Below, one piece after another: positions 4,356 to 47,989 of a stretch of 64,000 nucleotides of DNA. Position numbers and translations under genes: made by a program. Position 1 is the stretch's first letter, and each line of letters opens with the position of its first letter. Under the pieces are notes generated by a model. It saw only the letters and a list, made by a program, of their open reading frames with translations. It did no database searches and was not told where the DNA came from. The DNA is from Gemmatimonadota bacterium (lineage in GTDB: Bacteria > Gemmatimonadota > Gemmatimonadetes > Longimicrobiales > Gaopeijiaceae): the NCBI GenBank assembly GCA_022827345.1, contig JAJDTB010000032.1:372001-436000 (forward strand). Direction: 5' to 3'.

Positions 4356-5722
4356 GGCGACAACAGCGCGCTGGCGAGGCTCAGGACCATGACAAAGCCC
4401 ACCAGGTCCGTGAGGGTGTGGACGAAAACGGACGAGGCGACCGCGGGATCGACGCCGAGCCGGTCGAGGACGGTGGGGATGAGCGCCCCCGCGAAGCCGG
4501 CCACGATGATGTTGGCCCACATGGCGACGAGCACGACCAGCCCGATGCGCGGGTCGCCGCCCCACCGGAAGTAGGCGAAGGCGGCGAAGAGTCCGCCCAG
4601 GACGAGGCCGTTGACGAGCCCGACCAGCACCTCCTTGCCGACCGCGGGAAAGTGGTGCGAGCCGAGGCCGTCGCCGACCGCGATGCGGCGGATCGTCACG
4701 GCGAGCGCCTGCGTGCCGGTGTTTCCGCCCAGGGCGGCGATGACGGGCATGAGGAAGGCGAGGAAGGCGAACTGGGCAATCAGGCCTTCGAAGCGGAGGA
4801 TCACCATCGCGGCCAATCCGGCGGTCACCAGGTTCAGCGTCAGCCACGGGAGCCGCGAGCGGACGGAGTCGGTCCAGCCGGCCTGGAGCTCCTCCTCGTC
4901 GGACACGCCGGCCAGCTTGAGGATGTCCTCGGTGGTCTCGGCTTCGATCACGTCGATCACGTCGTCGAAGGTGATCTGGCCCCGGAGGGCGCCGTCTTCG
5001 CCGACAACCGGGATGCTGACGAGGTTGTACCGCGCCATGATGCGACCGACTTCCTCCTGGTCGGTGCCCGGATGCACCACGGCCGAGATGGGTTCGATCA
5101 GCGATTCGACCGGCGCCTCGGGGTCGGCGAGGATGAGGTCGGCGAGGGGGACGGTGCCGCGAAGCCGGTCTTTGTCGCCCACGACGAAGACGGAGTAGAA
5201 GTCCTCGACCTCGCGCCCTTGCCTGCGGATCTCGGCGATGGCCTCGCCCGCGCTGGAGTCGGCTGCCACCGCGACGAGGGCGGTCGTCATCAGTCCGCCG
5301 GCGGTCTCTTCGCCGTAGCGGAGCAGGTCGCGGATCTCGCCGGCTTCGGTGCTGGGCAGCGCGGCGAGCATGCGGTCGCGGTCGTCCGGATCCATCTCGC
5401 CGAGCAGGTCCGCGGCGTCGTCGTCCGCGAGTTCCTGCAGGAGGGCCGCGCCGCGCTTGTCGTCGAGGGCGGAGAGGAGTTCGGCCCGGTCTTCGTACTC
5501 CTCCATCTCGGCGAGCGTCTCGGACGCGACCTCGTCCGGCAGGGCCTCGAGGATCTCCAGCTGGCCCGCCTCCGAGGTGACCGACGCCACGAAGTCGGCG
5601 ATGTCCGACGGATGCATCCCGGCAACCCAGTCCGGGAGCTCGATGTGCTCCTCCTGGGCGAGCGCCCTCAACTCCTCCTGCGCGGTCGGATCCACGCCGA
5701 TCGGGGGCCTTTCGGAGCTCAT
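4352..5722 (-). CDS. mgtE: MgtE-family magnesium transporter
   Basis: 456 residues with the full MgtE layout: an acidic helical N domain (about 1-130, repeats such as LADDDAADLLGEMDPDDRDRML), two CBS domains (about 135-255, including the IPVVGEDGALRGQITFDDVIDVI strand) and a five-helix membrane domain (about 285-455) with the GGNTGTQ motif lining the ion path. It imports Mg2+, with the N and CBS domains acting as the Mg2+ sensor. Both ends overlap neighbours by 4 nt (ybeY stop at its start, meaB start at its stop), so it is translated as part of the string. I see no Mg2+ riboswitch here, as expected inside an operon. Confidence 0.95.
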   Translation of the reverse strand: MSSERPPIGVDPTAQEELRALAQEEHIELPDWVAGMHPSDIADFVASVTSEAGQLEILEALPDEVASETLAEMEEYEDRAELLSALDDKRGAALLQELADDDAADLLGEMDPDDRDRMLAALPSTEAGEIRDLLRYGEETAGGLMTTALVAVAADSSAGEAIAEIRRQGREVEDFYSVFVVGDKDRLRGTVPLADLILADPEAPVESLIEPISAVVHPGTDQEEVGRIMARYNLVSIPVVGEDGALRGQITFDDVIDVIEAETTEDILKLAGVSDEEELQAGWTDSVRSRLPWLTLNLVTAGLAAMVILRFEGLIAQFAFLAFLMPVIAALGGNTGTQALAVTIRRIAVGDGLGSHHFPAVGKEVLVGLVNGLVLGGLFAAFAYFRWGGDPRIGLVVLVAMWANIIVAGFAGALIPTVLDRLGVDPAVASSVFVHTLTDLVGFVMVLSLASALLSP

Positions 5723-21748: not shown

Positions 21749-22519
21749 ATGGGCGAGCGAGAGACCCGCTTCAAACTGACCCTGCACTACGACGGCTCCG
21801 CCTTCCAGGGGTGGCAGGTGCAGCCCGGAAAGCCGACCGTCCAGGGCGAGATCGAGGCCGCGCTCAGGCGGCTGACCGGGGAGCACCGCACGGTCCTCGG
21901 CTCGGGCCGGACCGACACCGGCGTGCACGCGACCGGGCAGGTGGCGGCGGTGACCGTGCCGGCCCGGTGGACCGCCGCCGAGCTGGCCCGCTCACTCAAT
22001 GCCCTGCTTCGCGGCAAGATCTGGACCGAGGACATTGAAGCGGTCCCAAACGGCTTCAACCCCAGGTACGAGGCGGTCGCGCGCAGCTATGCCTATCGGG
22101 TGGGCACGGCCGCCCGCGCCGCCTCACCCTTCCACCGCCGCTGGTGCTGGCCCCTCTGCCGGCCCCTCGACCTGGATGCCGCCGCCCGCGCCGCCGCACA
22201 CCTCACCGGCCAGCACGAGTTCCGTGCCTTCGCCAAGTCCGGCCAGCCCCATCGGGGGTACACCTGCCGCGTCACCCGGGCGCGGTGGGTGTCCTGGGAC
22301 GATCTCGGCGTTGTCTTCGAGATCTCCGCGAACCGCTTTCTGCACCGAATGGTGCGATATTTGGTAGGGACGATGGTCGACATCGGCCTGGGTCGCCGCG
22401 AGGCGGCCGAGATGGCTCTGCTGCTGCGAGGAGGAGAAGGAGACAGTGCCCTGAGGACGTCACGACCCGCGCCGCCTGAAGGCCTGTTCCTGACCCGCGT
22501 GGAGTACTCCGATGTGTAA
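21749..22519 (+). CDS. truA: tRNA pseudouridine(38-40) synthase TruA
   Basis: 256 residues. Catalytic aspartate is in GSGRTDTGVHA; other marks are LHYDGSAFQGWQ, FNPRYEA and FLHRMVRYLVGTMVDIG. Modifies U38-U40 in the anticodon arm. ATG at 21749 follows a GGGAG run closely. The last codons overlap the start of htrA by 8 nt, placing truA at the head of the string that continues into the purine genes. Confidence 0.95.
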   Translation: MGERETRFKLTLHYDGSAFQGWQVQPGKPTVQGEIEAALRRLTGEHRTVLGSGRTDTGVHATGQVAAVTVPARWTAAELARSLNALLRGKIWTEDIEAVPNGFNPRYEAVARSYAYRVGTAARAASPFHRRWCWPLCRPLDLDAAARAAAHLTGQHEFRAFAKSGQPHRGYTCRVTRARWVSWDDLGVVFEISANRFLHRMVRYLVGTMVDIGLGRREAAEMALLLRGGEGDSALRTSRPAPPEGLFLTRVEYSDV

Positions 22520-23987
22520 TGTCAACATTACATTTTGTAATGTTAAGTTTACTTTTCTGCTTGCTTCGGCGGGTGCTGTCGCCCTCTCCGGGTGTGAGAT
22601 CGTCCCCAGGAGCGCCGATTGGCCCGACTCCGCCGCCCCGGCAGCGGGAGCCGAACCGGTCGCCGCCACCATCCTGCCGCCCAGCCTCTCCTCCTCCCCC
22701 ACACCCCGGGAGTCCATCGCGCAGAGCCGCACGACCGCCATCGTGCGCGCGGCGCGGAGGGTGGCCCCCGCGGTGGTCACCATCTCGGTGCGGAGGCGCG
22801 AGCGCGTCCGGCGGCGCAGCTTCTTCGACGACTACTTCCTCCCCTTCCGTGAGACGCAGGGCCACGGCTCGGGGTTCATCATCGACGAAGGGGGGACCGT
22901 CCTCACCAACCACCACGTCGTCGATGGCGCCACCGAGATCCTCGTCACCCTTCCCGATGCCCGCGACTTCGACGCGCGGCTCGTCGGCTCCGACCCGGCC
23001 AGCGACATCGCCGTCCTCGCACTCGACGGCGCCGCCGACCTCCCCGCGGCCCCGCTCGGCACCGCCGCCGACCTCATGATCGGCGAGTGGACGGTCGCCA
23101 TCGGCAACCCCTTCGGCGGCCTCCTCTCGAACGCCGAGCCCTCGGTTACCGCGGGCGTGGTCAGCGCGCTCGGCCGCCACATCGTGCCCGGCGGCGACGA
23201 CGAAGGCTTCCATCTCGGCATGATTCAGACCGACGCCTCCATCAACCCGGGCAACTCCGGAGGCCCCCTGGTGAACGCGCTCGGCGAGGTGATCGGGATC
23301 AACGCCTCGATCCTGTCGCGCTCCGGGGGCAGCGAGGGACTCGGCTTCGCGATCCCGATCGACCGCGCGCTCAAGGTGGCAGGTGATCTCGCGCGTTACG
23401 GCGAGGTCCGGCGCGCCTGGCTCGGCCTGGACGTCGATGCGGTGGAGGCCGACGGGTTCGGCCGCTCGCGCGGGGTCCGGGTCGCGCGCGTGACTCCGGG
23501 GTCGCCGGCGGCTGACGCCGGGATCCGGGCCGGGGCGCGCCTGGTCCGCGCCGGGAAGACCCGCATGGCGACGCCCCTCGACTACGCTGCCGCGCTGCTC
23601 GACCTCGGAGCCGGGGACAGGATCGAGCTGGCGGTCGATGGGATGGAGCCCGTGCTCATCGAGGCCCAGCCGCTGCCCTCGGTCGCGGCGGAGCGGGTCG
23701 AACTCCTGCGAGACCTCGAAGTGGTGACCGTGACGCCGGGGATTCAGGCCGAACGAGGTCTTTCCTCGACCGAGGGGGCGCTGGTCGTCGAGATCTCGGA
23801 GCTGCTGGCGAGGAGGACGGGGCTCGCGCGCGGCGACGTGCTCCTGGCGGTGAACAACACCCGCCTCCGCACGGCGCGCGAAGCGGCGGAGGAGCTGCGG
23901 AGGACCCAGCAGCGCGGCCGGCCCTTCGTCCTCCTCTTCGAGCGCGGCGGACGCGTGGTGCGCACCGGACTGCTGGAATGGACATGA
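22512..23987 (+). CDS. HtrA/DegP-family periplasmic serine protease, lipoprotein
   Basis: 491 residues. Signal peptide with lipobox ALSGC (Cys28), a variable linker, then a trypsin-like domain with triad His135 (TNHHVV), Asp165 (SDIAVL) and Ser249 (GNSGGPL). Two PDZ-like regions follow (about 300-395 and 410-485). It degrades or refolds damaged envelope proteins. ATG at 22512 overlaps truA by 8 nt and is the only usable start before the hydrophobic core. Its first codons are formed by AT-rich palindromic DNA that looks like an operator, so it may be controlled apart from truA. purB starts 23 bp downstream. Confidence 0.9.
   Translation: MCNVNITFCNVKFTFLLASAGAVALSGCEIVPRSADWPDSAAPAAGAEPVAATILPPSLSSSPTPRESIAQSRTTAIVRAARRVAPAVVTISVRRRERVRRRSFFDDYFLPFRETQGHGSGFIIDEGGTVLTNHHVVDGATEILVTLPDARDFDARLVGSDPASDIAVLALDGAADLPAAPLGTAADLMIGEWTVAIGNPFGGLLSNAEPSVTAGVVSALGRHIVPGGDDEGFHLGMIQTDASINPGNSGGPLVNALGEVIGINASILSRSGGSEGLGFAIPIDRALKVAGDLARYGEVRRAWLGLDVDAVEADGFGRSRGVRVARVTPGSPAADAGIRAGARLVRAGKTRMATPLDYAAALLDLGAGDRIELAVDGMEPVLIEAQPLPSVAAERVELLRDLEVVTVTPGIQAERGLSSTEGALVVEISELLARRTGLARGDVLLAVNNTRLRTAREAAEELRRTQQRGRPFVLLFERGGRVVRTGLLEWT
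22515..22543. promoter_or_regulatory. AT-rich overlapping palindromes at the truA/htrA junction (family A operator)
   Basis: TGTAATGT-CA-ACATTACA is a perfect 18-bp inverted repeat at 22515-22532. The right arm is shared with a second perfect repeat, ACATTACA-TTT-TGTAATGT, at 22525-22543. A further half-match follows, so GTAATGT recurs 21 bp apart (two helical turns). It lies on the htrA start codon and codes for signal-peptide residues 2-11. A near-identical palindrome occurs at 45538-45557 in another protease promoter. AT content is far above the surrounding DNA. Confidence 0.7.
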
Positions 23988-31368: not shown

Positions 31369-32819
31369 TGCGACAGGGTGGGCGCAGGCCGACCGACATC
31401 CCCTTGAGCCACCTCGACGACCGTCCGCGCGAGGAATGCGGCATCGTGGGGATCTGCGGCGTCGAGAATGCCGCCGAACTCTCCTTCCTCGCGCTCTACG
31501 CCCTGCAGCACCGGGGACAGGAGGCCGCCGGCATCTGCGCGGCCAACAACGGCCGGACACGCGTGTACAAGGAACTCGGGCTCGTTTCGGACGTCTTCGA
31601 CGCGAAACGACTCGAATCGCTGCCGGGAAGCACCTCGCTCGGCCACGTCCGCTACTCCACGACCGGCGGCGGTCAGCGGGTCAATGCGCAGCCGATCGTA
31701 GTCGGGTATTCGGAAGGCGACCTGGCGATCGTGCACAACGGCAACCTCACCAATGCCCACGCGGTGAAGCGCCAGCTCGTGCACGAAGGCGCGCTCTTCC
31801 AGAGCACCTCCGACTCCGAGGTCATCGTGCACCTCATCGCGCGCTCGCGGCACCGGATGGTGCAGGCGCAGCTGCGCGACGCGCTCAGCTTCCTCGAGGG
31901 CGCCTATTCGCTCGTGATGACCGTCGGCGAGACGATGTACGCCGTGCGCGACCCGCGCGGCTTCAGGCCGCTCGTCATGGGTGAGCTGAACGGCGGCCAC
32001 ATCGTCACCAGCGAGACCTGCGCCCTGGACATCATGGGTGCCACCTACGTCCGGGACATCGAGCCCGGCGAGCTGGTGCGCTTCCGCAAGGGCGAGGTCG
32101 AAAGCCTCCCCGGGCTGCACCCGCAGACCCCCGCGCCGTGCATCTTCGAGCTCGTCTACTTCGCCCGCCCCGATTCGAACCTTTGGGGGATGAGCGTGGA
32201 CCGCGCGCGGCGGGCCTTCGGCCGGCAGCTGGCCAGGGAGCACCCGGTGCCGGCAGACTGCGTGATCGCCGTGCCGGACAGCGCCAACTCGGCGGCGCTC
32301 GGCTACAGCGAGCAGAGCGGGATCCCGTACGAGCTGGGGCTGCTCCGCAACCATTACATCGGCCGCACCTTCATCCGGCCGTCGCAGGCAGACCGCGACT
32401 TCGGCGCGCGCGTCAAGTACAACCCGGTGAAAGAGGTGCTGGCCGGCCAGCGCGTGGTCGTGGTGGACGACTCGATCGTGCGGGGGACCACTTCATCCAG
32501 CCTGGTCAAGTTCATCCGCGGCGCCGGAGCGGCCGAAGTGCATTTCCGGGTGGCAAGTCCGCCGGTTCGCCACCCCTGCTACTACGGGATCGACATGCCC
32601 TCGAAGGAAGAGCTCAAGGGGTCGGGGATGTCGGTGGACGAGATCGCCGCCGATCTGGAGGTGGACTCGCTCGGGTACCTGTCGCTGGACGGGATGGTCG
32701 ATGCCGTCGCCGAGGGCAGCCCGTACTGCACGGCATGTTTTTCGGGTGATTACACGGCCCCGCTGGTGGATCTGCAGGAGAAAACCCAGAATACTAAACA
32801 ATTTGATTTAGTATTGTAG
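31368..32819 (+). CDS. purF: Amidophosphoribosyltransferase
   Basis: 483 residues. First step of purine synthesis. A 23-residue propeptide precedes the N-terminal nucleophile (CGIVGICGVEN, Cys24), as in Bacillus-type enzymes; PRPP site VVVVDDSIVRGTTSS. Cysteines of the Fe-S type are visible near the C terminus (YCTACFSGDY). The final codons (TQNTKQFDLVL) are made of AT-rich palindromic DNA shared with two other places in the window, unlike the GC-rich rest of the gene. Last gene of the long + string. Confidence 0.95.
   Translation: MRQGGRRPTDIPLSHLDDRPREECGIVGICGVENAAELSFLALYALQHRGQEAAGICAANNGRTRVYKELGLVSDVFDAKRLESLPGSTSLGHVRYSTTGGGQRVNAQPIVVGYSEGDLAIVHNGNLTNAHAVKRQLVHEGALFQSTSDSEVIVHLIARSRHRMVQAQLRDALSFLEGAYSLVMTVGETMYAVRDPRGFRPLVMGELNGGHIVTSETCALDIMGATYVRDIEPGELVRFRKGEVESLPGLHPQTPAPCIFELVYFARPDSNLWGMSVDRARRAFGRQLAREHPVPADCVIAVPDSANSAALGYSEQSGIPYELGLLRNHYIGRTFIRPSQADRDFGARVKYNPVKEVLAGQRVVVVDDSIVRGTTSSSLVKFIRGAGAAEVHFRVASPPVRHPCYYGIDMPSKEELKGSGMSVDEIAADLEVDSLGYLSLDGMVDAVAEGSPYCTACFSGDYTAPLVDLQEKTQNTKQFDLVL
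32790..32815. promoter_or_regulatory. AT-rich palindrome at the purF 3' end (family B)
   Basis: Arms AATACTAAA (32790-32798) and TTTAGTATT (32807-32815) are perfect complements around an 8-bp centre. It overlaps the last codons and stop of purF and lies 22 bp from the serpin stop, so it sits between convergent genes. The same core (ATACTAAACA) recurs at 40973 and, on the other strand, at 47992. The stem is AT-rich, so a strong intrinsic terminator is unlikely; a protein-binding site is favoured. Confidence 0.6.
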
Positions 32820-40974: not shown

Positions 40975-40994
40975 ACTAAACATTGTTGTTTAGT
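40975..40994. promoter_or_regulatory. Perfect AT-rich palindrome between convergent genes (family B)
   Basis: ACTAAACA-TTGT-TGTTTAGT: perfect 8-bp arms around 4 bp, preceded by GAAT as at the purF end. It lies between the S9 peptidase (+) and the propeller gene (-), whose stops face each other, so no promoter is obvious. The same arms with a different centre occur at 47970-47989. Confidence 0.6.
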
Positions 40995-45537: not shown

Positions 45538-45565
45538 ATGTAATGTTCACATTACATTGTGTCAA
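45538..45565 (-). promoter_or_regulatory. Promoter with embedded perfect palindrome (family A) upstream of S9 peptidase
   Basis: ATGTAATGTTCACATTACAT (45538-45557) is a perfect inverted repeat with 9-bp arms. On the - strand a consensus -35 TTGACA (45565-45560) lies directly upstream, so the palindrome fills the spacer and -10 area where RNA polymerase would sit, about 55 bp before the start codon at 45482. That is a classic repressor site. The arms match those at the htrA start. Confidence 0.65.
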
Positions 45566-45610
45566 CCACAGTATACTTTTTTCTCTCGGAGCCTTCGCTC
45601 TGCGTTGGCC

Positions 45611-47969: not shown

Positions 47970-47989
47970 ACTAAACACGTTTGTTTAGT
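47970..47989. promoter_or_regulatory. Perfect AT-rich palindrome upstream of S9 peptidase (family B)
   Basis: ACTAAACA-CGTT-TGTTTAGT with perfect 8-bp arms, about 170 bp upstream of the S9 start at 47800. On the - strand a TATACT hexamer (47992-47987) overlaps the left arm and TTGACC lies at 48001-47996, so the site probably covers a promoter. The arms equal those at 40975-40994. Confidence 0.6.

Follow-up and report, generated by a model that had tools for sequence, protein, structure and literature searches.

ARG boxes are built of paired 18-bp palindromes with a 3-bp spacer, which gives a pitch of 21 bp and occasionally of 20 bp. TyrR boxes, TGTAAA-N6-TTTACA, are of the same length of 18 bp, and the promoters controlled by TyrR are those of aromatic amino-acid genes. 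ParB, Noc, MatP and SlmA occupy many palindromic sites along the chromosome with no regard to gene promoters, and it is mainly from such chromosome-organising proteins that extensive sets of palindromic protein sites placed irrespective of promoters are known. REP/BIME elements and MITEs are dispersed palindromic repeats as well, and they are enriched at gene 3' ends and in gaps between convergent genes. The operator of HipB, a protein of the XRE family, has the form TATCC-N8-GGATA, spans 18 bp, and several such operators are bound cooperatively (PMC3376134, PMC3920265).

The site considered here was found at the junction of truA and htrA in a 64,000-nucleotide stretch of Gemmatimonadota DNA (further referred to as the window). 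It is 39 bp long and consists of two 18-bp palindromes TGTMA-N8-TKACA with 3 bp between them and a pitch of 21 bp; its parts are given without strand. The gene truA (21749..22519, plus strand, PF01416) encodes tRNA pseudouridine synthase and has its 3' end inside the first palindrome, while the next gene, htrA-like (22512..23987, plus strand), specifies a serine protease that has PDZ domains, a signal peptide of the lipoprotein type and an N-terminus encoded by the site. The two genes overlap by 8 nt and are both coded through the element. The first palindrome, TGTAATGTCAACATTACA (22515..22532), reads TGTAATGT-CA-ACATTACA and includes the truA stop codon TAA (22517-22519) together with htrA codons 2-7. 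The spacer TTT (22533..22535) sets the 21-bp distance between the centres, and the second 18-bp half, TGTAATGTTAAGTTTACT (22536..22553), encodes htrA residues 9-14 and deviates in one of the 20 generalised fixed bases, the mismatch being in the outer half-site. The motif GTAATGT occurs at 22516 and 22537, i.e. 21 bp apart, so that both the palindromes and this repeat lie exactly where the preliminary description had placed them. That description recognised two interleaved palindromes, and both are present, but the functional unit is the tandem of 18-mers 22515-22532 and 22536-22553, while the second palindrome, ACATTACATTTTGTAATGT (22525..22543), which reads ACATTACA-TTT-TGTAATGT and comprises the inner half-sites of both copies, is a by-product of their junction. 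The ATG at 22512-22514 is the sole in-frame standard start of htrA, giving the N-terminus MCNVNITFCNVKFTFLLASAGAVALSGC. A lipobox-like LSGC closes the signal peptide, which makes HtrA a probable lipoprotein.

Palindromicity by itself is within chance, as 15 perfect palindromes with 8-bp arms and 0-4 bp centres were counted in the window against 13.7 expected; it is the recurrence of the sequence that goes beyond it, with three matches to the palindrome (up to 3 mismatches) in the window against 0.01 expected. The consensus TGTMA-N8-TKACA emerged from a comparison of the htrA junctions of 22 congeners. The host genome is a Gemmatimonadota MAG of 4.79 Mb in 75 contigs. The single palindrome gave 117 matches there (up to 2 mismatches) versus 3 for the reversed pattern, and the tandem site (up to 1 mismatch in 20 fixed bases) was registered 92 times versus zero in the reversed-pattern control, with a pitch of 21 bp and rarely of 20 bp. 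The second bipartite site of the window, TGTAATGTTCACATTACA TTG TGTCAACCACAGTATACT (45539..45577), lies 56 bp upstream of a minus-strand gene for a DPP IV-like S9 peptidase, and to its right one arm of a MITE-like repeat is recognisable. Another AT-rich palindrome, ACTAAACA-N4-TGTTTAGT, was met at window positions 32793-32812, 40975-40994 and 47970-47989, in two perfect copies and one with 2 mismatches (reversed control zero). In about 1 Mb of host sequence searched it occurred nowhere else than in this part of the window, and it may possibly serve as a local operator for the genes clustered between its copies. The host genome also carries a selenocysteine tRNA gene (L012 7610-7702, minus strand).

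At the truA-htrA junction 20 of 22 congeners have the paired site, which deviates there in 0-2 of the 20 fixed bases, versus 5-8 for the next-best alignment, and its half-sites are near-invariant. The pair was not found at this place in G008, G001 or five outgroup genomes, and in both G008 and G001 the overlap of truA and htrA is a plain ATGA. The start codon of htrA changes its position from species to species, as the ATG may fall within the first flank, the spacer or the second copy, and the N-terminal residues of HtrA vary with the part of the element that supplies it. The half-sites persist, whereas the inner bases, the start codons and the residues of the signal peptide vary, so it is the DNA and not the peptide that is conserved at the junction. 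In two genomes (L059 of G004 and L065 of G019) truA and htrA form one continuous frame through the element, which may reflect either a fusion or an internal start. Conservation of the palindrome with varying codons had been expected in advance from a search of related genomes at htrA, and this is what the 20 congeners display; retention of the peptide with loss of symmetry, named as the opposite outcome, is the reverse of what was observed. Thus, the idea of a DNA site that doubles as coding sequence gains support, as does the suggestion that it dictates residues of the signal peptide, since these follow the element across species. The supposed disposition of paired copies on one helical face is likewise in line with tandem 18-mers repeated every 21 bp. 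Only the exact core, TGTAATGT-N2-ACATTACA, turned out to be a preference of the species, while TGTMA-N8-TKACA repeated twice is what has been conserved.

Strict copies of the site were detected in 22 of 23 members of the genus, from 4 to 153 per genome (the largest number in G010), whereas the 57 further genomes examined from the family and order had none. Across the phylum, only 2 of 372 other Gemmatimonadota genomes have the site, in one copy each. One strict copy outside the genus, G264:C63:23135-23173, is likely to be a result of transfer or to belong to a contaminant contig, since it is letter-identical to the copy G002:C124:50680-50718 of a congener. The congener G008 has no strict site anywhere in its genome; in the truA+htrA tree it is the first branch within the genus, with weak support (54). 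The host genus itself seems to be Palauibacter-like and sponge-associated.

Selective constraint was measured on 12 orthologous sites common to the host and its sister species G009. Automatic mapping of the host to G015 and G002 gave many false orthologies, and only pairs with high two-sided scores were used. Half-sites differed at 2 of 240 positions (0.8%), a value that is partly ascertained since most pairs were picked where both species matched, versus 48 of 452 (10.6%) in the 20-bp flanks and 38 of 192 (19.8%) in the inner N8. The N8 changes about twice as fast as its immediate flanks (19.8% vs 10.6%, p=0.002). In an unbiased 162-kb syntenic stretch three of four sites are common to both species. 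The existence of a family of selected DNA-binding sites is well supported. Complementarity of the arms at positions 4/15 in the host was 0.54 versus 0.61 expected from columns, and no consistent covariation between the arms was found for inner position pairs. Since the arms lack complementary covariation, the site is read as duplex DNA rather than a hairpin, and four half-sites at fixed spacing with free bases inside point to a duplex bound by paired dimers. Single sites are dispensable, as the htrA copy is lost in G001 and site C9:255428 of the host is missing in G009. In the latter case the region G000:C9:255421-255491 was compared with G009:C22 around 152345 (95% identity), and the site falls in about 71 bp absent from G009, the boundaries of which are not clean. 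For core-only copies no clean target-site boundaries were resolved, their alignments being too diverged.

The position of sites relative to genes was assessed using gene calls from a simple codon-usage caller. The sites are intergenic, and among 74 host sites with gene context 43 are located between co-directional genes, 22 between convergent and 9 between divergent ones. Convergent gaps account for 11% of the total number of gaps and 9% of their total length, and the excess of sites in them is significant in both respects (p=1.1e-5 and 4e-7, respectively). In co-directional gaps the sites tend to lie nearer the stop codon of the upstream gene, at a median relative position of 0.37 (p=0.002). 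The TAA within the site repeatedly serves as the stop codon of a gene, as registered for several genes. Some sites are found 4-60 bp upstream of gene starts, gyrA being an example. No common function is apparent among the neighbouring genes, and in the complete genome G021 no strong clustering of sites was seen by eye among the positions listed. Canonical intrinsic terminators are scarce in the host genome (3 of 80 convergent gaps, with or without sites). Since the gaps bearing sites are not specially poor in such terminators, nothing links the sites to termination directly. The initial assumption that the palindromes constitute an operator specific to htrA had to be abandoned, as there are about 90 sites in the genome, nearly a third of them between convergent genes and with neighbours of no obvious common function.

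In some copies the 39-bp site occupies approximately positions 79-117 of a longer repeat of 246-250 bp, which has terminal inverted repeats GCAG[TC]CCGTGGACAA and resembles MITEs. This repeat was found in all genomes of the genus, at full length across most of it, and other genera contain it in a diverged form. The repeats of G008 (L155) and of G033 from genus g12 (L154) lack the 39-mer together with the bases next to it, while in copies with the insert (L012 around 4923-5168, L132 1501-1746, L114 and L145-L153) a 9-bp direct repeat GCTTCGCTC is present on both sides of it. Three head-to-tail copies with a 249-bp period, 2 bp apart, were observed at G021:C1:207149-207893. Features of MITEs, namely short non-coding sequence, terminal inverted repeats, near-identical copies and empty sites, characterise the 246-bp repeat and not the core-only sites. 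Most host sites, including that of htrA, have no recognisable repeat arms, and asymmetric copies of the site show no consistent orientation to genes. The Rfam search with the long repeat gave no match, and in the literature nothing was found on transcription factor sites in MITEs and nothing relevant on the literal 8-mers. The repeat has probably spread a part of the sites.

It is rather doubtful, though it deserves attention, that the whole set is a selfish dispersed repeat of REP or MITE type, in which the 39-mer would be a part or a relic of the mobile element with no function for the host. The location of the 39-mer inside a repeat with terminal inverted repeats present throughout the genus, the absence of the insert from the repeats of G008 and G033, the presence/absence difference between host and G009 at C9:255421-255491 and the copy number varying from 0 to 153 per genome are all in line with such an origin, but it does not account for the majority of sites devoid of repeat arms, for half-sites conserved much better than their flanks and for the same junction being retained across the genus. 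A classical regulon, with a global repressor or activator acting at approximately 90 target promoters including that of htrA, where a repressor would bind the palindrome at the transcription start or immediately downstream of it, may explain the dimer geometry, the tandem 21-bp spacing, the preservation of the site over the htrA start codon in the congeners mentioned above and the proximity of some sites to gene starts such as that of gyrA. Operators of promoters should lie upstream of their targets; instead, 22 of 74 sites are in convergent gaps, where neither gene has a promoter, 9 are in divergent ones, many cover stop codons, co-directional sites lie nearer to the upstream stop, and their neighbours have no function in common. 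On balance we consider the regulon unlikely.

The 5-8-5 inverted layout resembles core sites of tyrosine recombinases, i.e. inverted half-sites around a variable 8-bp overlap, and the rapid evolution of the inner bases, about twofold faster than that of flanks, would suit a site-specific recombination site. Yet the sites stay at fixed conserved positions, no excision, inversion or inserted cargo was seen in the loci read, and N8 differs among sites, which would block recombination between them, so this possibility is highly improbable. Even less credible is an RNA element, in which paired hairpins would act as a terminator or processing signal: it may be suggested by palindromes located at 3' ends, but complementarity at positions 4/15 is below the column expectation with no consistent covariation of inner pairs, the stems are short, AU-rich and not followed by a U tract, and asymmetric copies take no consistent orientation to genes.

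Based on these data one can tentatively assume, as a reading with a reasonable though less than even chance, that the site is a clade-specific bipartite element bound at gene boundaries by one putative protein acting as a roadblock or insulator. Boundary marking is preferred to control of htrA alone because the genome contains about 90 sites, often between convergent genes. A single sequence-specific protein, as two cooperating dimers or as a tetramer, would bind the duplex 39-mer, contacting its four TGTMA half-sites from one face of DNA and remaining nearly indifferent to the eight inner bases. Such a protein would occupy gene boundaries across the chromosome and limit read-through in both directions. 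At truA-htrA, where the site covers stop and start codons, it may lower transcription passing from truA into htrA. The set of sites would have been spread partly by the 246-bp MITE-like repeat and maintained by selection on half-sites. Less favourable to this reading are the 9 of 74 sites in divergent gaps, the dispensability of single sites, the lack of any direct link to termination and the fact that no obvious regulator was seen among the site neighbours read. The broader scenario is more tentative still: one clade might have acquired a dedicated DNA-binding protein together with paired sites numbering from a few to over 150 per genome, which punctuate gene boundaries, are partly MITE-spread and are now under selection. 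If true, the sites could be roadblocks, insulators or marks of chromosome domains, and relatives with empty positions (G008 and other genera) would serve as outgroups for tracing the rise and fixation of a genome-wide binding network, including its rise by means of a mobile repeat. The case of htrA also cautions that a single conserved palindrome over a start codon need not be a gene-specific operator, and it gives an example of a putative binding site dictating residues of a signal peptide.

Reading the site neighbours by eye revealed no obvious regulator gene among them that might be autoregulated through an adjoining site, and a Pfam check of ten neighbours or controls found only one Fur-type gene, adjoining a MITE-borne copy, and one BlaI-type gene, convergent and having the site at its 3' end. 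ArgR was rejected as the binder, as PF01316 is absent from G010 with its 153 strict sites and present in most other genera that have none. A Noc-like second ParB was rejected too: nearly every genome, that of G008 included, has one HTH_ParB protein, and no clade-specific paralogue was found.

Among the described systems, HipB operators share with our sites the 18-bp length and 5-bp inverted half-sites around eight free bases, but the half-site is different, the pitch implied by the published O1O2 oligonucleotide is about 28 bp instead of 21, and HipB sites are confined to the hipBA promoter, while those described here are dispersed at gene ends; no XRE candidate was found adjoining them. TyrR boxes coincide with them in the outer bases and in the length, differing in that the sites studied here are dispersed. 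REP/BIME elements and MITEs are similar as dispersed palindromes at gene ends, and part of the copies indeed reside in a MITE-like repeat, but the sites are 39 bp long and AT-rich, show no covariation of arms and are constrained in half-sites alone. With ParB, Noc, MatP and SlmA they have in common the dispersion of palindromes that ignore promoters, though the sequences are other. In architecture they come close to the sites of ArgR/AhrC, with two 18-bp palindromes 2-3 bp apart and a 21-bp pitch that is occasionally 20 bp, and depart from them in the sequence, which is TGTMA-N8-TKACA and not TGAAT-N4-ATTCA of the ARG box.
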